NCBI RefSeq assembly: GCF_024494645.1
Contig: NZ_JANHDJ010000001.1
Coordinates: 372,001-436,000 of the forward strand
Source of the DNA: Halohasta litorea
GTDB lineage: Archaea > Halobacteriota > Halobacteria > Halobacteriales > Haloferacaceae
DNA length: 64,000 nt
Direction of reading: 5' to 3'
Part shown: in pieces, positions 15,675-33,212 of the stretch
How the letters are laid out: each line of letters starts with the position of its first letter
Position numbering within the stretch: the stretch's first letter is position 1
The notes under the pieces: model-generated
What the model saw: only the letters and a program-made list of their open reading frames with translations
Told to the model about the DNA's origin: nothing
The model's database searches: none
Made by a program: the position numbers and the translations under genes

Positions 15675-16058
15675 ACATCTACAAGCAGCATATTTAATAT
15701 GTCGTCCACGGGTCGGAAAATACAACAACGGAGATGTGCACGTCGATACCAGCGAACAGCTATGGTCGTTGGCATGAACTTGACCCTCGCCATATTGAGA
15801 TATTTCCAAGGACAAACAGTTGAAGGAGAGATGCTCAAACAGAGCTCACGTCCCAGTCCCCGCGATACTGAAAAACGACTCTACCAAATTATTATGTCAC
15901 AGGATCGCTGAGCACAGGTCATCCCAGCGTTCGTCCTACCCGTCATGTGTAATCGTTCTATGACCCCTCAAGGAGGCCCTAAACCCCCTCGGAACTGTTT
16001 TATGCTGCGTCAGTAATCTCCGCTACAAAGTCATCAGTTAATCAGTTATATAGCTATT
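15675..16058. other. Intergenic region between convergent genes
   Basis: About 380 bp between convergent sulfatase-like genes. A 70-codon frame (15699-15911) is present but has no recognisable family or promoter. I see no RNA gene or repeat here. Confidence 0.4.
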
Positions 16059-17855: not shown

Positions 17856-18809
17856 TTATGACTGTATATCATCCTCAAATACCTGAGCCATCATCTGGAA
17901 ATAATGGTCGTTAGTCAGATCATATAATGTTCTCAACTGCTGGATGTGTATATTATGATATTTGACTGTATTTGAGTGTGTGGCACCTAACCAGTATCGG
18001 CTTGTCTTGTTCGGTCTCCGGTAGTCTTGTAGATGATTTTTTATTGTTGTTATACTTGCATCAAGAGCTCTTTTCGGCAACTCAGACTGATTTAATAACC
18101 AGTATTCGTATATTCCCCAGATTGCAAAATTGAACCCATTTAATGTATGTATTAGAGTTGGCTTAGGATATTCTTCAATCCAGTAATATCCCTTTTCATC
18201 GATTGCAACAACCCACGGTTTTGTATCTCTATCCGATGGAAAAGTTACCAATGTTTCAAAAATTTCATCTGCTCGGTTTTGATACCACTCGTCCTCTGAT
18301 TCTACATAGCCTCGTGTATATGCTGACAAAGCAATTCCCTGTGCCATTCCGGAATACCAAGGCTTTCCAAAAGTATACACTCCGTTCGGGAATGTAAATT
18401 CATATGGAAAATATATCCCGCCATCATGTTTGATAGATCTTTCAACAAATGCTTCTGCTACTTCACGTGCCTTGTTTCTATATCGGTTATCGTTGTCAGC
18501 ACGGTACATTTCTAATAAACTAAGCAAGTGGCGTGCTGTTGCTACTGGATGGAGGGCACTTTCTCCATCATTATCCCGTGTTATAACGGTCGGTAGGTTC
18601 TCAAGCTCACTAACTCCATAATTGTTACCCCCCTTCTGTGGGAGATCTTCGGTTTCGAGTTCAGTATAATCATAACTTTCAGAAATAATGTGTTCATCCA
18701 TTAACAGATTCTGATTATTTTCAGACCCAAATGAAGAGAGTGCAGAACAACCAGCTAACCCAGATACCGCTCCTGCTGTAAGCGAACTTAAGAAGACACG
18801 ACGGTTCAT
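17856..18809 (-). CDS. Lipoprotein resembling the D-glucuronyl C5-epimerase C-terminal domain
   Basis: A 317-residue protein with a twin-arginine-type lipoprotein leader (NRRVFLSS, lipobox LAGC with Cys21), so it should be anchored on the outer face of the cell membrane. The mature part resembles the C-terminal (alpha/alpha-barrel-like) domain of heparosan glucuronyl C5-epimerases: IYFPYEFTFPNG, then KPWYSGMAQGIALSAYTR, then HTLNGFNFAIWGIYEYW, matching the conserved Tyr- and Gly-rich active-site face of that domain. It would epimerise uronate residues in an already polymerised glycan. This fits an island that makes uronic-acid sugars. Low GC. The domain call is from recall; activity is inferred. 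Confidence 0.65.
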   Translation of the reverse strand: MNRRVFLSSLTAGAVSGLAGCSALSSFGSENNQNLLMDEHIISESYDYTELETEDLPQKGGNNYGVSELENLPTVITRDNDGESALHPVATARHLLSLLEMYRADNDNRYRNKAREVAEAFVERSIKHDGGIYFPYEFTFPNGVYTFGKPWYSGMAQGIALSAYTRGYVESEDEWYQNRADEIFETLVTFPSDRDTKPWVVAIDEKGYYWIEEYPKPTLIHTLNGFNFAIWGIYEYWLLNQSELPKRALDASITTIKNHLQDYRRPNKTSRYWLGATHSNTVKYHNIHIQQLRTLYDLTNDHYFQMMAQVFEDDIQS

Positions 18810-19140
18810 AGTGGTTTGTTAATCTACTTCTTATAAAATTACTCTGAAATCAATGGAGTCATACAACCCTTACAACATCGACGAGCAAGGGTGCATGCTG
18901 TGGTGGATGACTGCAAGAACTCTTTGTAGAGCTGTCCTGATTCTCGTGGAGACAGTAGCGTTGTTGATGAATTGCTCTTCTGAATTTCTCGAAGAGTTCA
19001 AGATTCGCTTTGACAGACGGACGAACACGAGCTCAGGAACCACTAGAGATGATTGGTGGCTTTATTTACCCCTCTCACAAGCACATTTATAATATTCTCA
19101 TAGGTTGTAATTTCGGACCAAATAGACTCTGGAAGACCGT
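18810..19140. other. Intergenic region without a recognised gene
   Basis: About 330 bp. The left end is the upstream region of the epimerase-like lipoprotein gene. A 79-codon plus-strand frame (18853-19092) has no family resemblance. No repeat or RNA gene is seen. Confidence 0.4.
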
Positions 19141-20523
19141 TTATTCAATATACCCTAGGTTCTTTAGGTGCTGTTTGTCGACCTCAACTGTCACGTCTTC
19201 TGGTGTTGAATTCGGTTCGACTGCATCACCAAATGATGACAGTTCGTCTCGAAGTTCTTGAGCCCACTCCGGAAGTTCCTCATGTGATACGTCAGGAGTT
19301 CCCTCAAACATAACCGTATCACTTCCAGTAGATCCAACCTCGGTGGCGACCAGCGTGTCGACACCGTCCCGTTTGGCACCAAACAGTTTCCGGCCGTCAG
19401 CTCTCCTGAGGCCCCTGTATGTCGTAACCGAGTCATCTCTTTCGTCCCATTCAGAGACAACTGGTGTGACTGTCCGAAATAGATCACTCGGGGAGACTGA
19501 GTCGTCAGTCACACCCGCCGCAGCCAAGATGGTCGTTTTGAGGTCAAGGAGACTTACCTGCTCGGCGACGGTATCAGTTTCCCAGTCCGGGTGGCCGATG
19601 ATCAGCGGAACTCGGATGATTTCTTCCCAGAACGCTGGCGGTACGTGTCCGAGCATCCCGTACTTCGACCGGTCGAGTACTTCTCCGTGGTCTGCTGTCA
19701 CAACAAGAATATCAATATCCGGGTCGTAGTGACCGCTCTCCTGTAATTGCTCAATAAACTGTGGCAATTGGTCAGCAGTATAGGCACACGAAGCCTCGAA
19801 AGCGGTCTTGAGATCTGCCTGTTCGGCAGCCGAAAGTTCCTCCCCGTTTGACTTGATGGCCTCTCGGGTGAACTTTCCGAGCTCACTTCGACTCCGCTCC
19901 TTTGAGAACGATTGCTTATCAAGGTACGACGAAGGCGGCTGGTATGGGTGGTGCGTGTCCATATAGTGTAGCCAACAGAACACGGGCGCGTCTTTCTCTC
20001 GACTCTCTAGCCAGTTGAGTGCTTGTTCGTTTAGCGCTTGTGCGGGGCGGTAGAATGACTCTTCACCGCTTGAGGCCGACAATAGCGGTTCGATGAGCCC
20101 GAAGTACGCCGTTTCGAAAAGCCAAAAGAACCGACTCAATGGTGTTTCACGGACGACGTTCGCAAGACGCTTCTTCACCCCCGGCCGTCCGAGATTCCCC
20201 GCAGTAAATCCCCGATCGTAGTTGTACATTTCACCGAAGAGATAGTTATCGGTCCAAAGACCGCACGCATATCCATGTTCGGCCAGCACTTCAGCGATTG
20301 GAGTGGGTTCACCTGATTCTGGAAGTCCCCACGCAGGAACCTCATCCGTCAGTGACCCCGTTGTTATGGCAGGCATTGAAGAACCAGTAAACGAAGCCGG
20401 AGCCACTGCTTGAGTGAAGTTCACGCCGTCGACGAGCGAAGCAATTCGTTCACTAGCCTCTTGGAACGAGGCGTACGGAAGAGAGTCTACAGAGAGAATA
20501 AATATATTCGGTTGGCGAGTCAT
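19141..20523 (-). CDS. Sulfatase-like alkaline-phosphatase-superfamily enzyme (4)
   Basis: A 460-residue protein with an IFILSVDSLPYAS metal block at 7-19, nucleophile block SFTGSSMPAITTG with Thr46 at the Cys/Ser position of sulfatases, the second metal block VTADHGEVLDR, a following GHVPP loop, and the family C-terminus LKNLGYIE. There is no signal peptide or TM segment. Like enzyme 2 it has Thr and lacks the C-x-P-x-R signature, so a phospho- or sulfo-transfer/hydrolysis role is open. It lies on the minus strand, divergent from a glycosyltransferase 108 bp away. Confidence 0.8.
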   Translation of the reverse strand: MTRQPNIFILSVDSLPYASFQEASERIASLVDGVNFTQAVAPASFTGSSMPAITTGSLTDEVPAWGLPESGEPTPIAEVLAEHGYACGLWTDNYLFGEMYNYDRGFTAGNLGRPGVKKRLANVVRETPLSRFFWLFETAYFGLIEPLLSASSGEESFYRPAQALNEQALNWLESREKDAPVFCWLHYMDTHHPYQPPSSYLDKQSFSKERSRSELGKFTREAIKSNGEELSAAEQADLKTAFEASCAYTADQLPQFIEQLQESGHYDPDIDILVVTADHGEVLDRSKYGMLGHVPPAFWEEIIRVPLIIGHPDWETDTVAEQVSLLDLKTTILAAAGVTDDSVSPSDLFRTVTPVVSEWDERDDSVTTYRGLRRADGRKLFGAKRDGVDTLVATEVGSTGSDTVMFEGTPDVSHEELPEWAQELRDELSSFGDAVEPNSTPEDVTVEVDKQHLKNLGYIE

Positions 20524-20631
20524 ACTTTTTGCTCACCGTGGGTCGCTAAGAATCTGATGAATTGCTGGAGACAATTACGACAGGTTAATACGGGGGTTGA
20601 CCGGAAAAGATACTGATACTTGTGTACAGAT

Positions 20632-21741
20632 ATGGATGCACTACATTTGACCACAGCGCATAATAGCACTGACACACGGATTTTTGACAAAGAGGCCAAA
20701 AGTCTCGTTGAGGCTGGGTTCGACATCGAGATTGTTGCTCATGATACATCAGATGAGCCACAAGATGGCGTAGAATTCCAGTCGCTCGGAACTGCAAAGT
20801 CTCGGACCGACCGATGGACGAGTATTCGTGATGTCGCTCGGATCGCGCAGAACGCTGATGCCGGGATCTACCATTTCCACGATCCAGAACTAATTCCGGT
20901 TGGTGTGTATCTGTCCTATGCGACGGATGGCGCAGTAGTGTACGATGCACATGAGGATTACGGACACATCGTGCCGATGCGTGATTGGGTTCCAAGTTGG
21001 GCAGAATACGCTCTTTCAAAAGGAATCCCGATTGCTGAATCAATATCTGCACGACGATTCGACGCTGTCGTCGCTGTTTCTGATTGGATCGGCAAACCGT
21101 TTCATGATGTTACTGACACCGTCGAAACGATACACAATTTCCCACAAACAACGTCGATGCCCTCAGTCGACGGGACCATCGAGACGACTGCTGAATGTAC
21201 TCTGTGTTTTGTTGGGGGACTTGTTGATGTTCGTGGTATACATCAGATGCTCGATCTCCTTCGATATCTTGTTGCAGATGGTGTCGACGCGGAATTGTGG
21301 GCACTCGGATCTTGGAAGCCAGACGCCGATCGTGATGCCGCAATCGAGTTCATCAAAACTCATTCTCTCGAAGAACGGGTCACCTTTCCAGGATACTTAA
21401 CATATGAGGAGATGTTCCGCTGGTTAGCATCTGCAGACGTAGGGCTTGCCCTACTAGACGTCGAACATTATGAGGGGGGAATCCCTACAAAATTCTTTGA
21501 GTACCTCTATGCTGGGCTCCCAGTCGTGACCACACCAGTTGATGCAGCAAGCCAGTTCCTACCTGCAGAGTACAAGTACGTCGTACCACAGGGAGACACA
21601 GAGGCCGCCGCCGAGGCTGTGCGACGAGCCTTAGATAGGGAGCATGACCAAGAAACAATACAACGGATAGTTGAGGAGCAGTATAGCTGGGAGCAGGAAG
21701 CCGAGAAGCTAATCGCTCTCTATGAGGATCTTCTAGAATAA
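20632..21741 (+). CDS. Glycosyltransferase family 4
   Basis: A 369-residue GT-B enzyme. The N-terminal TTAHNSTDTRIFDKEAKSL block is typical of GT4 enzymes of capsule and exopolysaccharide clusters, followed by DAHEDY and, in the C-terminal domain, EGGIPTKFFEYLYAGLPVV, the donor-binding E-x7-E-like region. It would add a sugar to the lipid-linked precursor in the cytoplasm. ATG 20632 is preferred over TTG 20620, as the family starts close to the first beta-strand DALHLTTAHN. It is followed by a GT2 gene on the same strand. Confidence 0.85.
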   Translation: MDALHLTTAHNSTDTRIFDKEAKSLVEAGFDIEIVAHDTSDEPQDGVEFQSLGTAKSRTDRWTSIRDVARIAQNADAGIYHFHDPELIPVGVYLSYATDGAVVYDAHEDYGHIVPMRDWVPSWAEYALSKGIPIAESISARRFDAVVAVSDWIGKPFHDVTDTVETIHNFPQTTSMPSVDGTIETTAECTLCFVGGLVDVRGIHQMLDLLRYLVADGVDAELWALGSWKPDADRDAAIEFIKTHSLEERVTFPGYLTYEEMFRWLASADVGLALLDVEHYEGGIPTKFFEYLYAGLPVVTTPVDAASQFLPAEYKYVVPQGDTEAAAEAVRRALDREHDQETIQRIVEEQYSWEQEAEKLIALYEDLLE

Positions 21742-21838
21742 ATTATAGAATGTACCAAAAGCATAAAAATGGAAATACCGGCTTTCAAAAACTATTCGTA
21801 TGATATGCGAAAGTACCTCTGAGTAATTATGCATCCCA

Positions 21839-22654
21839 ATGAATAAAAGCGTCTCAGTAGTCATGACGACATATGATGGTGATGAGGTATCCTATTTAAA
21901 GGAATGTTTTGAGAGTCTTATACAACAAACACAACAGCCTGATGAAATTATAGTAGTACGCGGGCACAATCTGAGAGCTGAGCTAAAAAAAGCTATTATT
22001 GAATTTAAGTCGACTACAGCTTTCACTGTACGCGATATCTCAGTTAACGAGCGTGGAAGAGGATATGCTCGGAAAGTTGGTACTACAAAAGCCTCCTCAG
22101 AGTTTGTTGCTATTGTTGATTCAGATGATATAGTATGTCCAAACAGGATAGAGGTACAATTTGAATATCTGTGTGAAAATCCGTCTACTGACGCTGTCGG
22201 CGGATATATTGGAGAATTTGAGACGGTGCCTGACGAAATCAAGGGTATTCGAGAGGTGCCAACAAATCCAGATGACGTCGAAAAAATGGCCTATCATCGT
22301 TGCCCAATCAACCATCCGACCGTTATGTTCCGGCGAGACGCTATAATCGATGTGGGAAATTATCGAGAAATGGAATATGGAGAGGATTATGAACTTTGGT
22401 GTCGGCTGTTATCCAACAATAAAATTTTAGATAATATACCGGAAGTACTGGTGAAAGCTCGGGCTTCGGAATTGATAAGTCGTCGCCGGGGATATAAGAT
22501 CGCTCGACATGAAATTAAACTACAGCGTGCTATCGTCCAATCTGGATTCTATGGGTGGTGGACAGCAATTATAAATCTCAGTGTTAGGATTCCACTGCGT
22601 CTGCTTCCAGAACGACTTGTTCGAGGACTCTATTACAGATTTCTACGGACATAA
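21839..22654 (+). CDS. Glycosyltransferase family 2
   Basis: A 271-residue GT-A enzyme. The start VSVVMTTYDGD, the early block QPDEIIVVRG, the DXD-type metal motif VDSDDIV at about residues 97-103 and the acceptor-side ED (GEDYELWCRL at about 180) are all in the expected order. It probably transfers a hexose or its uronate from a nucleotide sugar to the growing glycan on the cytoplasmic side. AT-rich codon use fits the island. It is the last gene of the island before the replication-origin region. Confidence 0.87.
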   Translation: MNKSVSVVMTTYDGDEVSYLKECFESLIQQTQQPDEIIVVRGHNLRAELKKAIIEFKSTTAFTVRDISVNERGRGYARKVGTTKASSEFVAIVDSDDIVCPNRIEVQFEYLCENPSTDAVGGYIGEFETVPDEIKGIREVPTNPDDVEKMAYHRCPINHPTVMFRRDAIIDVGNYREMEYGEDYELWCRLLSNNKILDNIPEVLVKARASELISRRRGYKIARHEIKLQRAIVQSGFYGWWTAIINLSVRIPLRLLPERLVRGLYYRFLRT

Positions 22655-22809
22655 GTATTCCACAGTGTGGATCGACATTACGTCGGCACAATCTGTCTCA
22701 ATGAGCCGGACGATGGGATCGATCGCTTACTAACACGACTCAACCGGTCTCTCAGATCCCATTAGAGTTGAATATTCTTCTGCATTTGGTGTAACAAGCT
22801 CACACACCC

Positions 22810-22858
22810 GTTCTTACCAAGTCATTGGAATACACAGTTACAACAGCTTGGTAAGAAC
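22810..22858 (+). repeat. 49-bp palindromic element, left copy
   Basis: Perfect 12-bp arms GTTCTTACCAAG and CTTGGTAAGAAC flank a 25-nt centre. A second element with the same arms and the same centre length lies at 28870-28918. The right half of this copy (22837-22858) matches the reverse complement of the left half of the other copy at 20 of 22 positions, so the two elements face each other. Confidence 0.8.
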
Positions 22859-22915
22859 TCAATCGGTCGACATTGAGTCGGAGGCCTATCGTCTCAATAA
22901 GAGTCCCTGTCTCAA

Positions 22916-23017
22916 TCAGACATTGGATTCGTACTCGTAGCATTGGCCACCAGCACGACTCTCATTTCGAGACTGCCGATTGAGGATCCTATGCATTGCG
23001 AGATCTAAGAGGTGGTT
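22916..23017 (-). pseudogene. C-terminal fragment of a second orc1/cdc6
   Basis: On the minus strand 33 codons before a TGA read [15 protein letters not shown] followed by [18 protein letters not shown]. This matches the winged-helix end of the intact Orc1 at 23295 (NHLSDLTMLGFLERTEQNEG then RAGGAHYQYELTLD), including the RAGG turn and Y-x-Y. Upstream the similarity stops, so only a remnant of a divergently oriented initiator gene survives. Confidence 0.65.
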
Positions 23018-23090
23018 GCCTATGCGCCGACGAGGCAAAGAAAGCCTGATCCCTGATAAAATTACCCACACCACGTAACGAGTGAAAACC

Positions 23091-23116
23091 GACACACCCC
23101 TCATTTCGTCTGTTCT
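23091..23116 (+). repeat. Origin recognition box-like repeat 1
   Basis: A 26-bp repeat with core CACCCCTCATTTCGTCTGTT, identical to the copy at 23152-23177, starting 61 bp from it in the same orientation, and inverted relative to the two copies beyond the 3' end of orc1. Confidence 0.8.
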
Positions 23117-23151
23117 CGCTACCGAGATGTATCCGACAAATGAATCAAACA

Positions 23152-23177
23152 GACACACCCCTCATTTCGTCTGTTCT
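23152..23177 (+). repeat. Origin recognition box-like repeat 2
   Basis: Exact 26-bp copy of the repeat at 23091-23116, same orientation, lying 118 bp before the orc1 start. Confidence 0.8.
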
Positions 23178-23294
23178 AAATTCCCAAACCGTGTACTACG
23201 ACACGATACACGAAAAACCAGATACAGACAAAACATACGAAACACACGAAACACAATACTTTTACAAGGTGGTATTGATACTTTAGCTACTGAA

Positions 23295-24494
23295 ATGAGT
23301 GACGACCTCTTTGCGGATATGACTGAGACACTGTTTGAAGACAAGTCAATTCTCTCCGAGGAGTATCGTCCAGACGTGATTGTCGAACGAGATGATGAGA
23401 TCGATGCCTACCGAACAGCACTCAAAGATGTGCTCTTCGGTCGAAATCCATCGAACGTCTTTCTATATGGCAAAACCGGCGTCGGGAAGACTGCCGTCAC
23501 CGAATACATCATCGAGGCACTGCAAGCAGAAGTCCAACGTCGAGAGGCTGCCGACGAGTTGCACGTTCACTCTCGAAACTGCAACGATGATAGTGTATAT
23601 CGCACAGTACGCTCGCTGATCAACAGTATCCGTGAAGATCATCAAGAGCAGTTCCCTGAAACAGGTCTCTCAACATCGCACGCCCTCGAAACACTGTATG
23701 AAGAAATGGAAGCAGTTGGTGGGACGTTTCTGTTCATCCTTGATGAGATTGACCACCTTTCGGATCCAGACTCTTTACTATACGAACTCCCGCGGGCGCG
23801 AGCAAATGGCCACCTAGAGACTGCAAGTGTTGGTGTGATCGGGATTAGCAACAACTACACGTTCCGATCCTCACTGAGCCCGAAAGTGAAAGATACGCTG
23901 ATGGAAAAAGAACTGGCATTTTCGCCATATGATGCCGAAGAGTTACAATCAATTCTCGCCGAACGTGCGGAGAAAGCATTGGTCGATGACGCCTGCGATG
24001 ACTCTGCGATCAGACTGGCCGCAGCAAGAGCTGCAAAAGATACAGGAAGTGCCCGACAAGCGATTGATCTCCTCCGCGAAGGCGGCGATGTGGCTGAAGA
24101 ACAAGGTGATGAGGCAATCACAGATTCTCATATCGAGATCGCCGCAGAGAGAGTCCAACGAGGTCGCGTCCAAGATAAGCTTCGTGACCAAACAATGCAC
24201 GCCCAACTAATTTTGGAGGCACTGGCTCACCTAGAGATCCGTGGCCAAGTTCCCGTACGATCGAAAGAGATCCAAAATGTATACGTGGACATCACTAATG
24301 AGTGGAACCACGATCCACTTACCACACTCAAAAGTATCCAAAATCACCTCTCGGACCTCACAATGCTCGGATTTCTCGAACGAACCGAACAGAATGAAGG
24401 CCGAGCAGGTGGGGCACACTACCAGTACGAGCTAACGCTTGATCCTGAGATCATTATCGATACTCGAAATGCCATTGAAGCTGAAGAGCAGTGA
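23295..24494 (+). CDS. orc1: Orc1/Cdc6-type replication initiator
   Basis: A 399-residue AAA+ ATPase with Walker A GKTGVGKT at 59-66, Walker B LFILDEID at about 145-152, a sensor strand GVIGISNN at about 180 and a C-terminal winged-helix domain (about 300-399). It binds origin recognition boxes and loads the MCM helicase. The open frame extends upstream to 23082 through the repeats, but ATG 23295 gives the family N-terminus (SDDLFADMTETLFEDKSIL) and lies after a TATA-like stretch. Repeats on both sides suggest that it controls its own origin. As haloarchaea have many orc1 paralogues, this may serve a secondary origin or a former plasmid. Confidence 0.9.
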   Translation: MSDDLFADMTETLFEDKSILSEEYRPDVIVERDDEIDAYRTALKDVLFGRNPSNVFLYGKTGVGKTAVTEYIIEALQAEVQRREAADELHVHSRNCNDDSVYRTVRSLINSIREDHQEQFPETGLSTSHALETLYEEMEAVGGTFLFILDEIDHLSDPDSLLYELPRARANGHLETASVGVIGISNNYTFRSSLSPKVKDTLMEKELAFSPYDAEELQSILAERAEKALVDDACDDSAIRLAAARAAKDTGSARQAIDLLREGGDVAEEQGDEAITDSHIEIAAERVQRGRVQDKLRDQTMHAQLILEALAHLEIRGQVPVRSKEIQNVYVDITNEWNHDPLTTLKSIQNHLSDLTMLGFLERTEQNEGRAGGAHYQYELTLDPEIIIDTRNAIEAEEQ

Positions 24495-24518
24495 CTCTGC
24501 TACTACCAATATAACGCC

Positions 24519-24542
24519 AGAACAGACGAAATGAGGGGTGTG
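24519..24542 (-). repeat. Origin recognition box-like repeat 3 (inverted)
   Basis: Reads AGAACAGACGAAATGAGGGG and then TGTG on the plus strand, the exact reverse complement of 24 bp of the upstream 26-bp repeat. It lies 25 bp after the orc1 stop. Confidence 0.8.
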
Positions 24543-24599
24543 AGGTTGACTAGGAAGGTGCTATTTCTCCGTGTGAACTGGAGCCCCCAATTTACTCTG

Positions 24600-24623
24600 A
24601 GAACAGACGAAACGAGGGGTGTG
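24600..24623 (-). repeat. Origin recognition box-like repeat 4 (inverted)
   Basis: The same inverted 24-bp sequence with a single T-to-C change (GACGAAACGAGG instead of GACGAAATGAGG), starting 81 bp after repeat 3. Confidence 0.8.
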
Positions 24624-24893
24624 TGAATATCGAAGCTCTATAGCCAAACTGCGAATCCTTGGCCGTCGACCAACACATTCTAATTATTTTCAGACGTCGC
24701 TATTGGTACTCTTTAGTTGGGATACGGTTGCAGCGTTGCTCTGGGGAGTCAACAAATCACCTGAAATAACACCTCAATTGGACTGAGGCAATCCTTGGAA
24801 AGAAGGGTCTGAATGCTCTCTATATTCATATGGAACTAATGGTCGACGCCACACTTTATGAGCGGTTGTTCACCATTTCAGTGCGTCGATGAT

Positions 24894-25121
24894 CTATAAT
24901 TCACCTTTACAAACGACCTCTCGAAGCTCTTCGAGGAGTTCTGGATGATGTTCTGAAAGAACATCAACATCTGTTTCTAATTCTTCAATTCTACTACGAA
25001 CACGATGAATCGCTTGATACCGTTTTTCATCAGACACATCAGACTCACCAGAGATCCTCTCCCGATCAGTCGTTGTCATAATAGCGCGGTATTTGCCCAT
25101 GTTTGTAGATTCAGAAGCCAT
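24894..25121 (-). CDS. Small conserved-looking acidic helical protein (75 aa)
   Basis: A 75-residue, highly charged, probably all-helical protein. The core MTTTDRERISGESDVSDEKR is followed by a likely helical hairpin (YQAIHRVRSRIEELETDVDVL then HHPELLEELREVVC). The pattern resembles small haloarchaeal proteins of unknown function that I have seen near replication and plasmid genes. It is divergent from the structured-leader operon at 25299, with about 175 bp between the two starts. An internal Met at residue 15 could be an alternative start. No function can be assigned. Confidence 0.65.
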   Translation of the reverse strand: MASESTNMGKYRAIMTTTDRERISGESDVSDEKRYQAIHRVRSRIEELETDVDVLSEHHPELLEELREVVCKGEL

Positions 25122-25195
25122 ATACTTCTACGTTAGCATCACCGCAATTTAACTTCGCACCATAGCCAATAGTTTGCTATAGTGCAAAGTTTTAA

Positions 25196-25318
25196 GTAGA
25201 TTCGGAATCGACATTTAATCGAGAAGCACGGGGTACCGCCTCAGAAAGTGAGGCCGGTGTTGCACCACCGACCTCCGTGCTTCGCGACCAAACGAAGCAT
25301 GAATGATTCCGAATCTAC
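25196..25318. repeat. 14-bp inverted repeat enclosing the leader and start codon
   Basis: GTAGATTCGGAATC (25196-25209) and GATTCCGAATCTAC (25305-25318) are perfect inverted arms, 95 bp apart. The left arm overlaps the promoter (a TTTTAA box at about 25190-25195) and the right arm overlaps codons 3-7 of the gene at 25299. It could be a paired operator at DNA level, or a conserved binding site used twice. Confidence 0.6.
25220..25286 (+). ncRNA. Predicted three-way-junction 5' leader RNA
   Basis: Three helices can form. P1 is a 9-bp stem GAAGCACGG (25223-25231) with CCGTGCTTC (25275-25283), extendable by two pairs beyond an A-G mismatch. P2 is GCCTCA (25238-25243) with TGAGGC (25249-25254) around a 5-nt loop. 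P3 is CGGTG (25255-25259) with CACCG (25266-25270) around a 6-nt loop, directly abutting P2. The TATA-like TTTTAA box would place the transcript start at about 25217-25222, exactly before P1, and the ATG follows 15 nt after P1. An alternative pairing of ACCGCCTCA with TGAGGCCGGT competes with P3, so switching is conceivable. I know of no matching RNA family. Confidence 0.5.
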
Positions 25319-25826
25319 GCCAGATGAATCTGTCGAACAGCACAGCAACCAATGGAGTGGCCCGCAACTCCAATCCTGTCCGAACTGCGGCGTGGTTGGC
25401 CTCCCAAAACGGATCGCAGCTCACGACTGCAGTCCCAATCAAACACCTAACGCAGCCTCCCACAAACACACCGACAAGGACACCACCGACCACACAACCG
25501 AAGGCCCAGCGCTCAAACTCAACACAACCATCGTCCGCCAGCGTGAAGCCGACCACACCACCGGCAGCCTCGAAATCACACGGGCCGCAACCACCGACCC
25601 AACACTCACTCTCGGACTCATCACCAATAGAGAGTCGACCACGATCGAACTGACCCCACAACAGGCAATCCAGGTTGCCAACACACTCCAGACCACGGCC
25701 ACCGAAATAGCAGCTTCCGAACTCCCAGACGACGCCTCACAGACACCCAATACGAACCAAATCCAAGACACCGAGTCCACACCGTCGACAGAGCCTACGC
25801 TGGGGGTGTTCGAGACCGATGACTGA
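25299..25826 (+). CDS. Zinc-knuckle-like protein upstream of a nuclease
   Basis: A 175-residue acidic protein. Near the N-terminus lies a CPNCGVVGLPKRIAAHDC motif (Cys27, Cys30, His42, Cys44), a likely CCHC zinc site. The middle (about 70-150) looks like a small alpha/beta domain with a final helix (LTPQQAIQVANTLQTTATEI), and the tail is Thr/Pro-rich. A longer frame from 25248 would translate the structured leader, so ATG 25299 is preferred. The stop overlaps the start of the nuclease gene by 8 bp, so the two are translated together. I do not recognise the family; binding of nucleic acid, or control of the nuclease, is a reasonable guess. Confidence 0.7.
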   Translation: MNDSESTPDESVEQHSNQWSGPQLQSCPNCGVVGLPKRIAAHDCSPNQTPNAASHKHTDKDTTDHTTEGPALKLNTTIVRQREADHTTGSLEITRAATTDPTLTLGLITNRESTTIELTPQQAIQVANTLQTTATEIAASELPDDASQTPNTNQIQDTESTPSTEPTLGVFETDD

Positions 25827-26451
25827 CAATCCCAATAGCTCGGCAGACACCAACACCGACGAGAACACGACCCCCGAGGACACCACCGAGACCCACCCCA
25901 AGGCTGACCCACAGCAAACAAACACTAACACCGAACAGTCGACTGATCCACCCCGAGAAACCACACCAGGACGCGGGCCGGGCCACGGCAAGTGGCTCGA
26001 AGACCGCGTCGCAACAGCTCTCGAAGAGTGGGGCTACCGAACCACCACACGGACCCAACTGTTGGCACTCACCGCAGATGTCGCCGCCCGCCGAGAAGAG
26101 CCCCAAGACGACCCCAGCGATTTCCTCGTCGTCGAATGCAAAGATTGGGCGACCAAGCTAGTCGGCGAACAGACGATCATTCGGCTGTGTCTGTTGGCCT
26201 TCATCGCTCGCGCGATGCCCGTGTTGTGTCACACCACCCATCTCACCGACCACGCTTGGGAGCTGGCCCAAGCCTACGACGTTCGGCTCCTAACGCTCGA
26301 TGACCTCGACAAAGACCAACTGCCACCGTTGACCGCCCGTCGCCCACCGGCTGGCACGACCCCCCCACCGACAGGGAGAGTTCCCCCGCGACCTTCGTTC
26401 GCGGCTCCCATTGTTACTGTGTCGGACGCCAGCCTGCGAGTACGACATTGA
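25819..26451 (+). CDS. PD-(D/E)XK restriction-endonuclease-like protein
   Basis: A 210-residue protein. After a disordered acidic N-terminus (1-50) comes GKWLEDRVATALEEWGY, then LTADVAA (Asp87), then DFLVVECKDW with Glu106 and Lys108: the E...D...ExK order of Mrr-like PD-(D/E)XK nucleases. It should cut DNA if metal and partner requirements are met. The gene overlaps the upstream zinc-knuckle gene and lies beside orc1. The last 35 residues (after a run of seven C) are Pro/Arg-rich and do not look native; another frame immediately after reads as good protein to 26569, so the 3' end may be frameshifted. Confidence 0.75.
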   Translation: MTDNPNSSADTNTDENTTPEDTTETHPKADPQQTNTNTEQSTDPPRETTPGRGPGHGKWLEDRVATALEEWGYRTTTRTQLLALTADVAARREEPQDDPSDFLVVECKDWATKLVGEQTIIRLCLLAFIARAMPVLCHTTHLTDHAWELAQAYDVRLLTLDDLDKDQLPPLTARRPPAGTTPPPTGRVPPRPSFAAPIVTVSDASLRVRH

Positions 26452-26569
26452 AGGGCCTGTCTTCGGCCACCCCAATGTTCCGCCCTGCTATGTGCCGGAT
26501 CGGACCGGCCACGATGAGTATGTATCGGCCTACGACAGCGACTACGAGTTCCACGACGGGCTGCCATAA
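26435..26569 (+). pseudogene. Out-of-frame tail after the nuclease gene
   Basis: In the +1 frame relative to the nuclease the sequence reads CEYDIEGPVFGHPNVPPCYV followed by PDRTGHDEYVSAYDSDYEFHD and a stop at 26567-26569. This looks like real haloarchaeal protein. It may be the original C-terminus of the nuclease, displaced by a frameshift near the C7 tract at about 26361-26368, or a piece of another gene. A similar RHVPDRTGHEGPALIDA peptide is encoded near 28815-28865. Confidence 0.4.
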
Positions 26570-26681
26570 GAAGTAGGTGAGATATCTTCCCCTGAACAAC
26601 AGACGAATTGCATTCTAACCTCGTCCAGAAGGCCATCAAACGCACTACCGACAACATTAGCCGCCTACAGCGTACTGTCAG

Positions 26682-27926
26682 ATGACTCCCGAACCAACGG
26701 CTACAAAGACGCTTGAAGCCACCCTCGCGCCACCAACGGCACACAAAGAGCGGCGGCTTCAGCGAACGGTGGCGACCTACCGCCAGGCCCTCGAAGACGC
26801 CTTCGAGAGTGGTGCGGATACGCAGTCGGCAGTCAACGAAGTTGTGACACCATACACGCTCACCTCCTACGCCAAAGACGCCCTCAAGAGCTACGTCCCG
26901 AAACTCCGCGACACATACAACGCGTCGGAACTTGACGACGACCACCCGGTTCGGTTCACGAACCGTGGGTTTCGTATTGACCACTCCGAGGACCGTCGAC
27001 ACGAGTTCTGCTGGCGTGTCCCGCAGGCCGGGCGTGGCAACGCCTTCTGGATTCCACTGCGGATCAATCCAGATCAACGTGAGTTATGGGCTGATCTGTT
27101 TGACGGCGAGTTGTCGCCGGGTGAGTTCCGACTGCAACGCAACCGAACGAACTGGGTATTGCACGTCACCGTTGAATACGAGATTGAACCTGTCCAGATA
27201 CCGGACGACCCAACACCAGTTGGTTTCGATATCGGCGAATCCAAACTCCTGACGGGCTGTGCCCTGACAGAGAATGGAACACCGAAAGAGCCGTTTCTGT
27301 TCGACGGTAGCCGCGCCCGGCATCTCCGAAAAGAGATGCACACCACGCTCAAACGCCTGCAAGAACGCGACTGTGCGGAGTGGCGACGTGATGAACGTTT
27401 CGACTACTACCAGAACGCGCTCACCGATATTGTCGAAAAAGCGTCTCGGCAAGCAATCGACTACACCCAACAGTTCGATGATCCAGTGATCGTCCTCGAA
27501 GACCTGTCGTACATCCGTGAGAATCTGGACTGCGGGAAATACATGAACCGTCGACTGCATGGGTGGGCGTTCGCCCGTCTCACTGACCGAATCGAGGACA
27601 AAGCTGCCGACACAGGTATTCCAGTTCGGTTCGTGAATCCAGCCTACACCTCGAAAACGTGCCACGCCTGCAACCATATCGGTCGGCGGGATTCACAAGC
27701 AGAGTTCCGGTGTACGAACAGTGAGTGTTGGGTCACAGAGTACCAAGCAGATGTCAACGCCGCGGCCAATATCGCTGGTCGCCTTGACCCGTGGGGAGAG
27801 AGCCTGCCGTGGAAACCGGCAGGCGATGACTCGCCACAGGATAGGAGCGGTTGTGACACCGCCACAGGACACCACACGCCGAGTCCGAAACCCGGACAGA
27901 CGACGCTTGTGGCGTTTCAGTCCTGA
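26682..27926 (+). CDS. tnpB: TnpB RNA-guided nuclease (IS200/IS605 family)
   Basis: A 414-residue TnpB with all three RuvC-like acidic residues: Asp183 in GFDIGES, Glu273 in VLEDLSYIRE and Asp357 in YQADVNAAANI. The zinc ribbon C-x2-C/C-x4-C is Cys327, Cys330, Cys344 and Cys349. TnpB proteins are guided by omega RNA transcribed from the 3' part of the gene and the right end; the guide is the flanking DNA. Here the guide would begin at 27993, inside the 3' end of the neighbouring regulator gene. The catalytic site looks intact. It is only distantly similar to the other TnpB of this window. Confidence 0.88.
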   Translation: MTPEPTATKTLEATLAPPTAHKERRLQRTVATYRQALEDAFESGADTQSAVNEVVTPYTLTSYAKDALKSYVPKLRDTYNASELDDDHPVRFTNRGFRIDHSEDRRHEFCWRVPQAGRGNAFWIPLRINPDQRELWADLFDGELSPGEFRLQRNRTNWVLHVTVEYEIEPVQIPDDPTPVGFDIGESKLLTGCALTENGTPKEPFLFDGSRARHLRKEMHTTLKRLQERDCAEWRRDERFDYYQNALTDIVEKASRQAIDYTQQFDDPVIVLEDLSYIRENLDCGKYMNRRLHGWAFARLTDRIEDKAADTGIPVRFVNPAYTSKTCHACNHIGRRDSQAEFRCTNSECWVTEYQADVNAAANIAGRLDPWGESLPWKPAGDDSPQDRSGCDTATGHHTPSPKPGQTTLVAFQS

Positions 27927-27940
27927 AACCTCCCTCAACG

Positions 27941-27992
27941 CGAGGCTTCCTTTGTAGGAAGCCTCGCCGTTCACGGCGGGTGAGGATGTCAC
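27941..27992 (+). repeat. Right end of TnpB element 1, likely omega-RNA 3' scaffold
   Basis: An 11-bp hairpin CGAGGCTTCCT/AGGAAGCCTCG (27941-27951 and 27956-27966) with a 4-nt loop is followed by CCGTTCACGG and GAGGATGTCAC at the element border. The segment from the hairpin's 3' arm to the border resembles the right end of the minus-strand element at 34437. Confidence 0.65.
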
Positions 27993-28637
27993 TTAAAACA
28001 GTTCCTCAAGCGTTCGATCACCGTCTGCATCCGCATTCAGAACGCTTGGATCAGCGGGAGCTGCGTCTGCATAGAGCGTCTGTGTATGGAATTCAGTACA
28101 TGAATCAGCAGTAACTCTTGGATCTGCCTGATCTGTCTCGTCGAATGTTAACACAGATTGAATCAACGCTGGGAGAGTCGGTCGCGGGGCAGCTTCATGT
28201 CGCTGTACTTTCTCAGTCTTGTCTGTGGCGTCGTGGGCCGCACGCATGATGGGGAGCCCTCGAAGGTAGTTGTACTCTGCGATGAGTCGCAGACCAAACT
28301 CCGTGAACCCCCAGAAATCGGTGGGAAGATCTCTTACCTCAGCATTCGGCTGATGGGTATACTGTGTGAGTATTTCGTGGTCGGCGAGGTCGGCTAACTG
28401 TTCGCTGATGGTTGAGCGACTCTTGGGGATGTAGTAGTCGAACTCAGTAACCGAAACAAGGTGGTGTGGGTGACCGAGGATTAGTTGGAGGATATTGTGT
28501 CGTGTCTCTTGGGAGAGATACTGCTGGACCGTCTGTGGTGTTTCGTCTGGGATCGAACCATCTACATCGAAGACAGACTCAACCGAGATATCTGTGCTAC
28601 AGATATGCTGATCAGAGGAAATATTTGGATCACTCAT
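27993..28637 (-). CDS. Winged-helix transcriptional regulator (ArsR-like)
   Basis: A 214-residue protein with a winged-helix domain at about 35-115: TVQQYLSQETRHNILQLILG, then the recognition helix PKSRSTISEQLADLADHEIL and the wing with FWGFTEFGLRLI. The C-terminal half is acidic and of unknown function. ATG 28637 is preferred over an upstream start at 28661 because a TATA-like ATTTA (about 28666-28672 on the coding strand) would place a leaderless start there. An 8-bp-arm palindrome further upstream is a likely operator. A TnpB element lies directly against its stop codon. Confidence 0.78.
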   Translation of the reverse strand: MSDPNISSDQHICSTDISVESVFDVDGSIPDETPQTVQQYLSQETRHNILQLILGHPHHLVSVTEFDYYIPKSRSTISEQLADLADHEILTQYTHQPNAEVRDLPTDFWGFTEFGLRLIAEYNYLRGLPIMRAAHDATDKTEKVQRHEAAPRPTLPALIQSVLTFDETDQADPRVTADSCTEFHTQTLYADAAPADPSVLNADADGDRTLEELF

Positions 28638-28684
28638 CGTGGTAATAGTTACCCCTGCCACGACACTAAATGTTTCGTAGAGGT

Positions 28685-28715
28685 CATGACGGATATCATC
28701 GAAATTTCCGTCATG
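28685..28715. promoter_or_regulatory. Palindrome upstream of the regulator, candidate operator
   Basis: CATGACGG (28685-28692) and CCGTCATG (28708-28715) are perfect inverted arms around a 15-nt AT-rich centre. It lies about 50-80 bp before the regulator start, just upstream of its TATA-like box, so it could bind the regulator itself or another dimeric factor. Confidence 0.5.
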
Positions 28716-28869
28716 GTCGAACGATCAGTAGTCGACGACACTCTCAGTGGCGGTCTGACAACTCGATGGCCACAATGCATCCAAAGCCCGATTTTCGGAG
28801 GCCAACGCGCACGCCATGTCCCGGATCGAACTGGCCACGAAGGACCTGCTCTGATCGATGCAACCCTAC

Positions 28870-28918
28870 GTTCTTACCAAGTTGTTGTAATGATCCGTTG
28901 TGGTTGCTTGGTAAGAAC
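28870..28918 (-). repeat. 49-bp palindromic element, right copy
   Basis: The same perfect 12-bp arms GTTCTTACCAAG/CTTGGTAAGAAC and a 25-nt centre as at 22810-22858, in opposite orientation by its inner half. The remainder of the gap between the regulator and the AglB-like gene (28638-29028) contains no intact gene; a short VPDRTGHE-encoding stretch lies at about 28815-28865. Confidence 0.8.
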
Positions 28919-29028
28919 CCAATTGTTCTGAAGTTACAATTTTCGAATCTGTGCGGGCAGTTTCAAAATCGGTTAGACTGATCTTCACCGACAGTCCACG
29001 AATCCAAGAGACACATACTATTTTACCT

Positions 29029-31452
29029 CTATCCACTACCGGCCGCAACTACCGTTCCATCGAGCACATCCGTCTCAGTCACCTCAACACTCGCTGACCC
29101 AACGCTGTACTCACCAGCATAGGGAACAGTCACCTCGACTTGCCCAGAGTCTCCAACAGTCACCTCACGTTCGTAAGTGAATAATGCGGTATCAACAGAC
29201 ACCTCTGTACTCACGTTAACCGTCTCACCTGGCTCTTCGGGTACAGTAATCGTTGCTCCCGGAACGACGACAAATGCAGCCGCAGACCGATCGTCGTCGA
29301 CAGATAACAGCTGATAGTGTGACAGTGCCTCTGTACCGTTTCCACCAGTACCGAGGTTTGTGAGCAACTGATTCTGTGTACTCTCGGCTGGGATATCTGC
29401 ATCAACCTCCGTCAGAACCACATAGCCAACGCGGCCGTCGAACTGACTGTACCAGCCGTCAGGATCCGCATCCAACAGAAAGTCCTGGAAATTATTTTGG
29501 GCGTAGCTATAGCTTCGTGACTCTCCATTTACGAAGTGATTGTACATCCTATTGTCTCCCCACTCGCTCAGCACGAAGTTAGCCGGATATTCGCGATCGA
29601 ACTCCGTGGCATGGTCGTCAATCGCCTCTAAGGCACTCGCTTGTGGACCGCTATAGGTCGCCTGTGCTGTTAATCCCGGAACAAAAATGAGACTCATCCC
29701 GAAAATCAACACGCCAATGCCTACCAGATAGACCAGTTTGTGACGGTCGGGCAGCGAAATGGATGGCATGGATGGTCCACTATCAGAAACCTTCGAGGCT
29801 GTCTGTGCTTCGAATGGTGCTGGAGGCCGTGCTAGATCAACAACCGACAGGACATACACCACTCCGAGTCCACCGAGGATCGAGAAGGGAATCGCAAGTT
29901 GCCCGGCGAATCGAACTTGGATTCCTGCGAGAACAAGCAAGAATCCACTGTAGGTCCCAAGCAACAACCAGCCGGGTTCGTACTGTCGATAGACAACCAG
30001 CCCAACCCATCCCAAGACAGCCAATGCAATGTAGAATTCCATGCCAAGCTGGTATATTGGCCCGAGCAATACAGCATACTCCGTTGAGAACAACGACGCA
30101 GTCTCTGTTATATCCTCACGGAAAAACAGATCATCAACCCGCCGTTGAGCCGCCGCCCAGTCTTCAGGACGGAGCCATCGGAACACGAAGAGACCACCCG
30201 CTGCAACGACACCCTCACCGACAAGCAGACCACGATAATCTAGTTCATGTCGACGCCACAATTCTGCGAGTGCAGCCACGACAACGGCACCACCGAACAC
30301 CAACAGCGGAGTTGTCGAAACGAACCCTGAGTGCCAGCCCCAGCGAAGATGCAGTACAAGTGTAAGGACACTCCCGATACCCACACCAACTAACGCTGGA
30401 AGATTTGCCAACACTGGCGAAACGTCTGCTCGGGTATCCAGTGCCACACGCAGTCCAATGTATCCCGCAAGCGGCATCAAAAGAAGTGGTGAACCACCCC
30501 ACGCATGAGTACCAAACGCAACTGAGAGACCAAAGGCGACTGCAACGCCCCACGTAAGAATTGACCGGAGATGCGACATAACAGCCCCTCGCGTATCACT
30601 ACTCTCTTCGAGTCGCTGCTGGAGGTCGACCGCAAGCCACCCAAGCGTAAGCAGCGTTATGCCGAGCCAAAAGTACTGGTGGACATTGTGATCGAGAAAG
30701 CCCAGCCCCGTATATACTGCATGAATCGGTGTCACAGCAAATACGAGCACCGACGTGATTCCGACACGGACGTCTTGGGTGAGAATTACGGCTAGTTTGT
30801 AAATCACAACCCCAAGTGCAACGGACCCTAAAACAGGGAGCCAGATGGCAACGGTCTCTGCGGCCACCTGACCTCCACCAAGCACTGTTGCAACAAACCA
30901 GTTTGTCGCATGGGCAAACGGTCGTACTCCAGAGACACCAACTGGTGCGTCGACCAAGACGTTGTAATCGGTCACTCCCGAAGAGTCTGCCAACAACTCA
31001 CCCATCCAGTACCGGAAATAGTAGGGGTCATTGCCCGGCGAGATGGCATAGCCACGTTGAAAGATCGACCCAAACGCGGTCATCCGTGCCCCAGCGACTG
31101 CTAGCAACCCAATGAATAGCCCGGCCATTGCTTGGCGGTCGACCGATGGTAGAGACAGATTCTGTGCCGGCTCATCTGCGCTAGTCTCTTCGTCTACCAG
31201 ATCTCCATCCAAGACCGCCTGAACGTTTTTGGGGTCTGCTATTTGATACTCCCCATCGACCTTCTCGACGATTCCTCGCGAGACAAGCTCGCCAAACGTT
31301 CCAGAATCGATTGCAATATCGTCGAAGGTCCACGTTGTTGTCTCTGAGTCGACTGCAAGGACAGCTGCAAGTGCCCGTTCTCCGTCAGTATGATCTGCAA
31401 GAAACGAAGATGTTGCATCGGTGTCAGTCCCCGAGTCGGCATCAGAAGTCAT
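29029..31452 (-). CDS. AglB/STT3-like oligosaccharyltransferase family membrane protein
   Basis: An 807-residue protein. Residues 1-105 are cytosolic and resemble a small winged-helix-like domain (GERALAAVLAVDSETTTWTF ... LVSRGIVEKVDGEYQI). About 13 membrane segments follow (110-590), with an early loop GNDPYYFRYW (from about 140) in the place of the metal-binding G-x-D-P loop of AglB/STT3. A C-terminal outer domain with beta-rich end follows. The STT3 signature WWDYG appears to be replaced by SEWGDNRMYNHF. Canonical AglB transfers lipid-linked glycan to Asn of secreted proteins; whether this paralogue does so is uncertain. ATG 31452 is preferred over GTG 31461. Confidence 0.78.
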   Translation of the reverse strand: MTSDADSGTDTDATSSFLADHTDGERALAAVLAVDSETTTWTFDDIAIDSGTFGELVSRGIVEKVDGEYQIADPKNVQAVLDGDLVDEETSADEPAQNLSLPSVDRQAMAGLFIGLLAVAGARMTAFGSIFQRGYAISPGNDPYYFRYWMGELLADSSGVTDYNVLVDAPVGVSGVRPFAHATNWFVATVLGGGQVAAETVAIWLPVLGSVALGVVIYKLAVILTQDVRVGITSVLVFAVTPIHAVYTGLGFLDHNVHQYFWLGITLLTLGWLAVDLQQRLEESSDTRGAVMSHLRSILTWGVAVAFGLSVAFGTHAWGGSPLLLMPLAGYIGLRVALDTRADVSPVLANLPALVGVGIGSVLTLVLHLRWGWHSGFVSTTPLLVFGGAVVVAALAELWRRHELDYRGLLVGEGVVAAGGLFVFRWLRPEDWAAAQRRVDDLFFREDITETASLFSTEYAVLLGPIYQLGMEFYIALAVLGWVGLVVYRQYEPGWLLLGTYSGFLLVLAGIQVRFAGQLAIPFSILGGLGVVYVLSVVDLARPPAPFEAQTASKVSDSGPSMPSISLPDRHKLVYLVGIGVLIFGMSLIFVPGLTAQATYSGPQASALEAIDDHATEFDREYPANFVLSEWGDNRMYNHFVNGESRSYSYAQNNFQDFLLDADPDGWYSQFDGRVGYVVLTEVDADIPAESTQNQLLTNLGTGGNGTEALSHYQLLSVDDDRSAAAFVVVPGATITVPEEPGETVNVSTEVSVDTALFTYEREVTVGDSGQVEVTVPYAGEYSVGSASVEVTETDVLDGTVVAAGSG

Positions 31453-31634
31453 TGTCAACACGATAAGAATCAGATCTCATGATGGTTTCGTTTTAGAAAG
31501 CTATCGAAACATCAAACCACTACTAAGACGAGGAGATAAATTATGTGTGCAGCTATTCAGTTTGCGCTAAATATTACTACACTATTTACAACTGTTTGAT
31601 AAGATTCCGATACCGTTTCCCCCAGAGAGCCATG

Positions 31635-32102
31635 TCACTCAATCCGTCGACTACCACTCCCAAGTCGTCGCAGGGCGGGCCAGTAGAACCACCAGATAAC
31701 GACGCCGGTCGCAATCACACCGACCGGAATCGGTCCGGAGACGCTACGGCCAGCCAACCTCCACCAGACCATCGTCGACCCAACCGCTGACAACACGAGC
31801 AGTCCGGCGGTCAGCCGGGGGTCCTCGCGGTCGAGGATGACGCCGCTGGCTGCACTCGCTACGGCCCCAATATAAAAACCGAGGCTGATCGGCCACACCT
31901 GCAGCGACCACGGCAGCGTCCCGAAGCCGCGTGTCGCACCGAGATACTCGGGGAGACCGAAGACGTGCCACGGGTTCGTGTTGACCAGTCCCCACGACAT
32001 CACGAACGTCAGCTCACCCGCGCCGTTTGGGAGGGCGACCCATGGAACAACCACGAGCCCACAGACCGCCGCCAGTGCCGCCCGTGAGGAGACTCGATCC
32101 AT
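31635..32102 (-). CDS. Four-TM membrane protein of unknown function
   Basis: A 155-residue hydrophobic protein with about four membrane segments (9-25, 68-87, 97-112, 123-142) and a short basic tail. It directly abuts the DRG-type GTPase gene (its start is adjacent to that gene's stop on the same strand), so the two are co-transcribed. I recall similar haloarchaeal four-TM proteins of unknown role but cannot name a function. The right-hand gap to the AglB-like gene is about 180 bp. Confidence 0.72.
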   Translation of the reverse strand: MDRVSSRAALAAVCGLVVVPWVALPNGAGELTFVMSWGLVNTNPWHVFGLPEYLGATRGFGTLPWSLQVWPISLGFYIGAVASAASGVILDREDPRLTAGLLVLSAVGSTMVWWRLAGRSVSGPIPVGVIATGVVIWWFYWPALRRLGSGSRRIE

Positions 32103-33212
32103 CTACCGACTCGTGATGATCCGCAGTACGTCCTCGTCGGCCAACTCGTGGCCCGTGCCGACCTGCTGGTCGTCGTGTTTCGCACTCGGCCCGCTGACCC
32201 GGGCGAACCGGAACCGCTCTTCGAACTCGCCGCCGAGTTTGTGGAGGGCGTCCTCGATAGTCGCGCCCTCCCGGAGCATCAGTGGCTCGTCGTAGTCGAC
32301 GCCCCGGCCGGGTTTGTCCATATAAATACGGACCAGCCCGAGTTTTTCGTAAATCCGCTCTTTGAGGGCCTCAAGCCCTTTCTCCTTCTCGGCACTAATG
32401 AACGTACACTCCTCGGGGTCGATATCGTGGGCCCGAAGGTTCTCCTTGACGGTCGGAATGTAGCTTTCGTCGATCAGATCGGTCTTGTTGACCGCCACCA
32501 TCGAGGGGATGTAGATCCGGTTGTCCATCATCCCGTCGATGAGTTCGTCGATGGAGGGATCGCCCCGCACGGTGACCTCGGCGTTGACGTAGCCGTTCTC
32601 CCGGAGCACGTCCTTGATCGTCTGCTCGTTGAGGCTGACGCTGTCGCTTTTGTTGACCTGTATCCCGTTTTTGTGTCGCTTCCGGATGTGGATGCTCGGC
32701 GGCTCCGTATCGAGGCGGATCTTGTTGTTGTACAGCTCCTGGCGGAGTCGTTCGTACTGGTCGATCTCGAAGACCGACAGCATGAATACCGCGAGGTCGG
32801 CGGTGCGGACGACCGACAGCACCTCCTGGCCCCCGCCGCGGCCGTCGGCTGCGCCCTCGATCAGTCCCGGCACGTCCAGGATCTGGATGTTCGCCCCGCG
32901 GTACTGGAGCATTCCTGGATTCACGTCGAGCGTCGTAAACTCGTAGGAGCCGGTCTCGCTGTCGGCGTTGGTCAGCGCGTTGATCAGCGTCGATTTGCCG
33001 ACACTCGGGAAGCCGACGAGGGCGACCGTGGCGTCGCCGTGTTTCTCGACGGCGTACCCCTGGCCGCCGCCCGCGGAGGACTGGTTTTCGAGTTTCTCTT
33101 TTTTCTCCGCGAGTTTCGCCTTCAGTCGGCCGATGTGGGCCTCGGTCGACTTGTTGTACGGCGTCTCGGCGATCTCCTCGCGGATCGATTCGATTTCCTC
33201 CTCCAATCCCAT
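32103..33212 (-). CDS. DRG-family (Obg-like) GTPase
   Basis: A 369-residue GTPase with G1 GFPSVGKST at 67-75, G2/G3 region SYEFTTLDVNPG ... ILDVPGLIEGAADGRGGG, G4 NKTD, and a C-terminal TGS domain (from about 295; VRIYMDKPGRGVDYDEP). The N-terminal basic/acidic helix (1-45) is typical of the developmentally regulated GTP-binding (DRG) proteins found in all archaea and eukaryotes. It probably acts on ribosomes. High GC and conserved: a core gene. It is the first gene of a two-gene unit with the four-TM protein. Confidence 0.93.
   Translation of the reverse strand: MGLEEEIESIREEIAETPYNKSTEAHIGRLKAKLAEKKEKLENQSSAGGGQGYAVEKHGDATVALVGFPSVGKSTLINALTNADSETGSYEFTTLDVNPGMLQYRGANIQILDVPGLIEGAADGRGGGQEVLSVVRTADLAVFMLSVFEIDQYERLRQELYNNKIRLDTEPPSIHIRKRHKNGIQVNKSDSVSLNEQTIKDVLRENGYVNAEVTVRGDPSIDELIDGMMDNRIYIPSMVAVNKTDLIDESYIPTVKENLRAHDIDPEECTFISAEKEKGLEALKERIYEKLGLVRIYMDKPGRGVDYDEPLMLREGATIEDALHKLGGEFEERFRFARVSGPSAKHDDQQVGTGHELADEDVLRIITSR

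Follow-up and report, generated by a model that had tools for sequence, protein, structure and literature searches.

Two palindromes face each other across an orc1 initiator gene in the 64,000-nucleotide stretch of the Halohasta litorea genome analyzed here (the window), which raises the question of what such a pair does at a replication-origin unit. Comparison with other haloarchaeal genomes placed both palindromes in a family of sites with a tight geometry and a link to orc1. It also revealed a family of small proteins, designated F7, whose promoters carry this type of palindrome and whose subtypes co-vary with the palindrome arms. Because F7 promoters carry the palindromes, the arms follow the F7 subtype and F7 is usually encoded beside orc1, the palindromes were read as F7 binding sites. 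On this sequence evidence we lean, with modest confidence, towards the interpretation that they are F7-type protein binding sites and that the pair forms a replicon-control or partition bracket of the orc1 origin unit.

The palindrome pair of the window

The pair and its inner halves are located as follows:
22810..22858, no strand assigned: left palindrome, GTTCTTACCAAG-N25-CTTGGTAAGAAC
28870..28918, no strand assigned: right palindrome, arms as in the left one (GTTCTTACCAAG-N25-CTTGGTAAGAAC), different centre
22838..22858, plus strand: inner half of the left palindrome, inverted repeat I7; similarity to the right inner half extends past the arm (TTACAACA)
28870..28890, minus strand: inner half of the right palindrome, inverted repeat I7

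Both elements had exactly the perfect 12-bp arms and 25-nt centres that the original prediction had described. Its 20 matches in 22 positions between the inverted inner halves were confirmed by eye, and the 21-nt arms at 22838-22858 and 28870-28890 were 95% complementary. The centres were otherwise unlike (12/25 identical, in either orientation). Since the four arms are identical while the centres diverged, the sequences suggest that selection on the arms of the pair acted until recently. In 40 random windows of preserved dinucleotide make-up, palindromes with 12-bp arms and 20-30-nt spacers occurred at a mean of 0.025, and same-arm pairs at 0. With up to 3 mismatches, the window palindrome was found at two places only in its own genome. 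It was absent from 196 other haloarchaeal genomes.

A palindrome family linked to orc1

The family to which the window pair belongs, as a variant, has arms of 10-14 bp with the core T[AT]ACCAA and half-sites approximately 34 bp apart. The window arms contain TTACCAA, with 27 nt between the 7-mers (range for the family, 24-29 nt). The pattern TAACCAA-N20..40-TTGGTTA occurred in 104 of 157 haloarchaeal genomes, at 1-32 copies per genome, and a reversed control pattern gave almost no hits. Palindromes of this TAACCAA type were concentrated on particular contigs, mostly plasmid-like DNA. The CTTACCAA version, nearest to the window arms, was present in 28 of 177 genomes. In a generic scan of these regions, same-arm palindrome pairs belonged to ACCAA-core families only, save for one secondary overlap inside such a cluster.

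Geometry was tightly constrained. In a search that allowed 18-40 nt between the 7-mers, the distance was 24-29 nt in 153 of 161 distinct T[ATC]ACCAA palindromes, and a pyrimidine preceded the core in 98% of their half-sites. Among 50 distinct CTTACCAA elements, 46 resembled the window pair in carrying a T ahead of each arm, and 49 had a spacer of 26-30 nt between the 8-mers (27 in the window). The centres showed no conservation. This geometry looks like that of two recognized half-sites at a fixed distance. No description of these palindromes was found in the papers searched, and the family is apparently undescribed. One contig carried a separate arm variant, as a cluster of CTAACCAATG palindromes that was partly duplicated in near-identical form (L128:5255-6637).

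Related pairs bracketed other orc1 genes. A scan around orc1 orthologues yielded one additional same-arm pair, in a genome of the same genus, with ACTAACCAAG-N32-CTTGGTTAGT and ACTAACCAAA-N33-TTTGGTTAGT on either side of orc1. A search for this motif within the genus revealed a second such pair in that genome, also enclosing an orc1 gene. Another contig of the window genome carried a copy of the motif as well, at a distance of 92 bp from an additional orc1 gene. Same-arm pairs of the CTTACCAA type enclosed orc1 at six or more other plasmid loci (L154, L183, L219, L220/L221, L223 and L243) as well as in the window. Pairs of the CACTAACCAA type did so at L041 and L112 (same genus), and TTAACCAAC elements at L122, L123 and L244. 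In L183 (a plasmid of Halobacterium sp. DL1, same locus as L240), L223 and L243 (a plasmid of Halomarina sp. BND7), spacing was nearly constant, at ~660-700 bp before and 126-188 bp after orc1. This sample of bracketed genes is small and partly motif-selected, and gene calls at unannotated loci are based on open reading frames. Around 94 orc1 genes, palindrome density was ~0.08-0.10 per kb within 2 kb on the upstream side and 1 kb on the downstream side, versus ~0.015 farther off, values that are approximate because the sample was partly picked through the motif.

A small protein family that tracks the palindromes

F7 genes repeatedly started 2-16 bp from a palindrome. They encode proteins of ~107-126 amino acids, one version of which ends in ..KATITIKEINDNRYYYWQWREG..YKGPV. 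A cysteine-bearing version contains ..CGKDNCKC..HGPYKYIVRRQG.., and one such protein matched Pfam DUF6788, of which no mention by name was found in the papers searched. F7, with its promoter palindrome, is apparently also undescribed. Examples are L242:2431-2754, L244:12681-13004, L240:9481-9819 and L243:1677-2195, and the family occurred in ~100 genomes. A search of viral contigs gave no confirmed F7 relative.

To avoid circularity, 40 F7 genes were selected by protein similarity alone and the DNA upstream of them was then read with a fixed criterion (exact 9-bp arms, a spacer of 14-30 and a position ≤80 bp upstream). A palindrome was present upstream of 36 of the 40 genes, as compared with 29 of 2001 control genes. 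Exceptions included two genes (L299, L300) whose TTAACCAAC half-sites form direct rather than inverted repeats, and one with an imperfect palindrome.

Wherever a typed F7 protein had a motif (50 cases), arm type matched the subtype, without any off-diagonal case; 8 further typed proteins had no motif by the pattern used. The matching combinations were Y-type with TTAACCAAC (36), Cys-type with TCTTACC (10) and AYITIK-type with TTACCCCAC or TAACCCAC (4). A protein that diverges jointly with the site in its promoter is usually one that binds DNA and regulates its own gene. The operator of a Cys-type F7 gene at L298, GTTCTTACCTAACA, was close to the window arm.

In 31 rows of F7 neighbourhoods, for which loci were partly picked for orc1 or motif and two loci were entered twice, F7 lay ≤1.6 kb from orc1 in 25, ≤1.3 kb from a plasmid regulator gene designated F2 in 12, and ≤5 kb from ParA in 8. 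The original suggestion of a pair peculiar to orc1 units, which may consist of partition- or silencing-factor sites, is supported by the related pairs around other orc1 genes and by the way in which the site family follows one orc1-linked small protein. Scattered copies unrelated to replicons, the outcome named beforehand as speaking against it, were not seen. The same rows bear on the alternative that the sites are parS-like loci and F7 a ParB-like centromere protein that works with ParA. Such a system would fit the several sites on each replicon, a candidate autoregulated site-binding protein and the proximity of ParA to F7 at some loci (F7-palindrome-ParA at L150; also L183 and L229). However, ParA was a far less frequent neighbour than orc1 and was absent from the window, and we regard a centromere as unlikely.

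The palindromes could also be ordinary transcriptional operators or terminators of plasmid genes, without a role in replication. Consistent with this possibility, F7 promoters nearly always carry a palindrome and some elements abut stop codons. However, the palindromes were spread over codirectional, convergent and divergent gaps just as frequently as these make up all intergenic gaps: 27 of 111 were in convergent gaps, the same share as for all gaps, and divergent gaps (23) were not enriched. Because of this match, the palindromes as a class are not simply operators of the flanking genes, and an operators-only reading of the whole family was rejected, as convergent gaps were not depleted. The sites that bracket orc1 in the window, moreover, are 436 bp and 208 bp away from any gene start. 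Taken together, the operator explanation appears improbable.

Genes and origin boxes between the palindromes

The gene content that had been proposed for the segment was confirmed for the following features (ORB, origin recognition box):
23093..23177, plus strand: two ORBs, CACACCCCTCATTTCGTCTGTTCT, upstream of orc1 (repeats D5, I1, I3)
23295..24494, plus strand: orc1/cdc6 initiator gene (Cdc6_C, Cdc6_lid, AAA_16; orthologues 57-86%)
24519..24623, minus strand: two inverted ORBs downstream of orc1 (repeats D4, I1-I4)
24894..25121, minus strand: 75-aa protein, convergent to orc1 (open reading frame)
25248..25826, plus strand: 192-aa protein, passenger gene (open reading frame; no Pfam family)
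25819..26451, plus strand: Mrr-type nuclease, passenger gene (Mrr_cat, E 7e-6)
26682..27926, plus strand: TnpB, passenger insertion (Cas12f1-like_TNB)
27993..28661, minus strand: ArsR-like winged-helix regulator, F2 (97 plasmid records; HTH_metalloreg weak)

Four ORB repeats thus flank orc1, two on each side, and their sequence, CACACCCCTCATTTCGTCTGTTCT, differs from that of the palindromes. In the bracketed same-genus unit L041, a small minus-strand gene (L041:11044-11316) occupies a place equivalent to that of the 75-aa gene. The 192-aa gene is preceded by a perfect inverted repeat of 14 bp (25196-25209 / 25305-25318), inside which an imperfect one of 18 bp is nested; this region (window 25196-25318) may be a structured leader or element end. 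F2 is a haloarchaeal plasmid gene that is often a neighbour of F7 and orc1; the window copy is 59% identical to a Natrinema plasmid protein and 50% to one on pNRC200. In most plasmids, the gap between F2 and its divergent partner is 115 bp and carries TTTGGTT...AACCAA motifs (L239-L244). F2 was considered as the binding factor on account of these motifs in the divergent promoter of plasmid copies, yet it is absent near many palindromes and was retained as a minor possibility only.

The Mrr nuclease and TnpB look like passengers. Copies of TnpB, ~68-79% identical, are present on many haloarchaeal plasmids, and the match spans TnpB alone. Its presence in the segment bears on the possibility that the palindromes are ends of elements resembling miniature inverted-repeat transposable elements, IS605 or PATEs, or terminal repeats of an integrated element, given that haloarchaea carry palindrome-ended IS605-type elements and PATEs (PMC3119063). 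In Haloquadratum, SMRs of 80-110 bp and the longer PATEs are mobile repeats with conserved interiors (PMC3119063). The palindromes share with them that they are short haloarchaeal palindrome-bearing repeats, but here the arms alone are conserved. The window variant exists in two copies with unrelated centres, rather than in many near-identical full copies; arm type follows F7 subtype; and TnpB occurs on many plasmids by itself. Mobile ends are therefore very improbable. The proposal of terminal repeats of an integrated replicon found no support either, with no empty site shown and the family scattered over replicons, also in promoters and between single genes.

Genomic setting and homology breakpoints

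The segment lies in a variable glycosylation island, next to a glycosyltransferase and an AglB lacking in other members of the genus. The island (window ~12000-31500) further encodes a sulfatase-like protein and glycosyltransferases, and its AglB is 64% identical to that of an order-level relative; it ends at ~31640, where synteny within the genus resumes. The closest relatives lack this AglB and the surrounding island, and their DRG locus does not contain the orc1 segment. As the relatives have no surrounding AglB island, a clean empty site for comparison was not available. In Halorubrum sp. JWXQ-INN 858, the orthologous orc1 adjoins the same 155-aa gene and DRG GTPase as the right flank of the window, but in opposite relative orientation:
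31635-33212 of the window, compared with L061:5435-9191: orc1/DRG comparison, opposite relative orientation

An inversion of the orc1 unit between the two genomes is possible. Together with homology breakpoints between plasmids, it raises the alternative that palindromes are crossover points of some recombinase and delimit exchangeable plasmid modules (orc1, PolB or single genes), like pdif or attC with crossover at the outer arm. In several high-identity pairs, plasmid homology stopped 0-5 bp from the outer edge of a palindrome (L154/L200, 96% over 1547 bp; L210/L216; L115/L116). Palindromes also often abutted gene 3' ends, whatever the orientation: 17 of 115 were no more than 5 bp from such an end, and the stop codon fell in the arm or next to it. 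On plasmids L244 (4399-6805), L122 and L113, a type B DNA polymerase gene was enclosed by or abutted TTAACCAACA palindromes, with its stop codon within the arm. Within 60 bp of palindromes, 60 breakpoints were counted; 200 random intergenic placements gave 33 on average and 52 at most. This excess over random intergenic positions is only moderate, and not significant at 5 bp, so that a role in recombination is possible but is a weaker rival to F7 sites. Arms that are common by function would also make homology appear to stop at the outer edge, and the four identical arms with unrelated centres in the window favour arm recognition over recent exchange. Furthermore, the sites are tracked by F7, and no recombinase gene was observed to do likewise. 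We therefore consider crossover sites rather unlikely. Sites between gene modules on plasmids are known from pdif modules and integron attC. The palindromes resemble these in their position between plasmid modules, but have a 20-25-nt inter-arm spacer and weak breakpoint statistics.

A putative replicon-control bracket

If the palindromes are F7 sites, F7, encoded next to orc1 on plasmids, would be autoregulated via the palindrome in its promoter. Every arm would represent a single half-site, and within a palindrome the half-sites would be approximately three helical turns apart. The pair lies outside both ORB clusters, and proteins bound to it could bridge to form a loop or handcuffed complex around the orc1/origin unit. 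Such a complex would restrain orc1 expression or origin firing, and the bound pair might also mark the replicon for segregation. The window unit has kept the pair and F2 but has no F7 gene. As its pair is an orphan, it would be served by another F7 in trans or be a recent relic of a plasmid replication module in the glycosylation island.

Several observations weigh against this interpretation. No F7 gene was found in the window or beside the CACTAACCAA pairs, and F7 has no recognized DNA-binding domain. The window arms finish in AAG, whereas most Cys-type sites have AAAC. Close orc1 orthologues (65-86%; Halorubrum, Halobellus, Haloquadratum, Natronocalculus) lack the pair, which is therefore dispensable for this orc1; a strict paired-palindrome scan of Halorubrum-type orthologues gave none. 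A classical ParA partition role is not general, since ParA was near F7 in only 8 of 31 rows. The window genome contains six F7 genes, four of them with TTAACCAAC promoters. Because it has no CTTACCAA palindrome besides the pair, a cognate F7 with a window-type operator was not found in this genome.

In working principle, the closest analogues of the putative F7 system would be KorB of IncP plasmids or ParB/parS, without membership of either being claimed. KorB, a regulator and partition protein, acts on a few palindromic O_B sites over the plasmid, one of which is in its own promoter. F7 sites are similarly scattered, with one at the promoter of the protein itself, but F7 is an archaeal DUF6788-like protein of 107-126 aa whose sites bracket orc1, and no sequence relation to KorB is expected. 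In ParABS, archaeal SegAB and pNOB8 AspA, a site-binding protein likewise regulates its own gene, and several palindromic sites lie close to the origin. The putative F7 system would resemble them in both respects; ParA is not a constant neighbour of F7, and membership of ParB/parS is not claimed for that reason. In Haloarcula hispanica, ORB repeats and the Cdc6-titrating oriC2D cluster are cis elements that flank orc1/cdc6 and regulate initiation (PMC3936714). The palindromes also flank orc1/cdc6, but differ from these elements in sequence and geometry and co-vary with F7, and the ORBs of the window are separate from them.

Implications for haloarchaeal replicons

More tentatively, and with somewhat less confidence than for the window pair, orc1-linked F7 proteins and their dispersed, co-diverging palindromes may constitute a general replicon-identity system of haloarchaea, in which the palindromes would enclose the origin unit and the system would determine, for each replicon, its compatibility, copy number or segregation. 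How several coexisting orc1-driven replicons are counted and segregated in haloarchaea is poorly understood. If the interpretation is correct, a small protein with co-varying sites around the origin gene would provide replicon control with a concrete candidate that can be tested. Its sites would also offer a sequence signature by which plasmid modules, integrated plasmids and perhaps incompatibility groups could be assigned.

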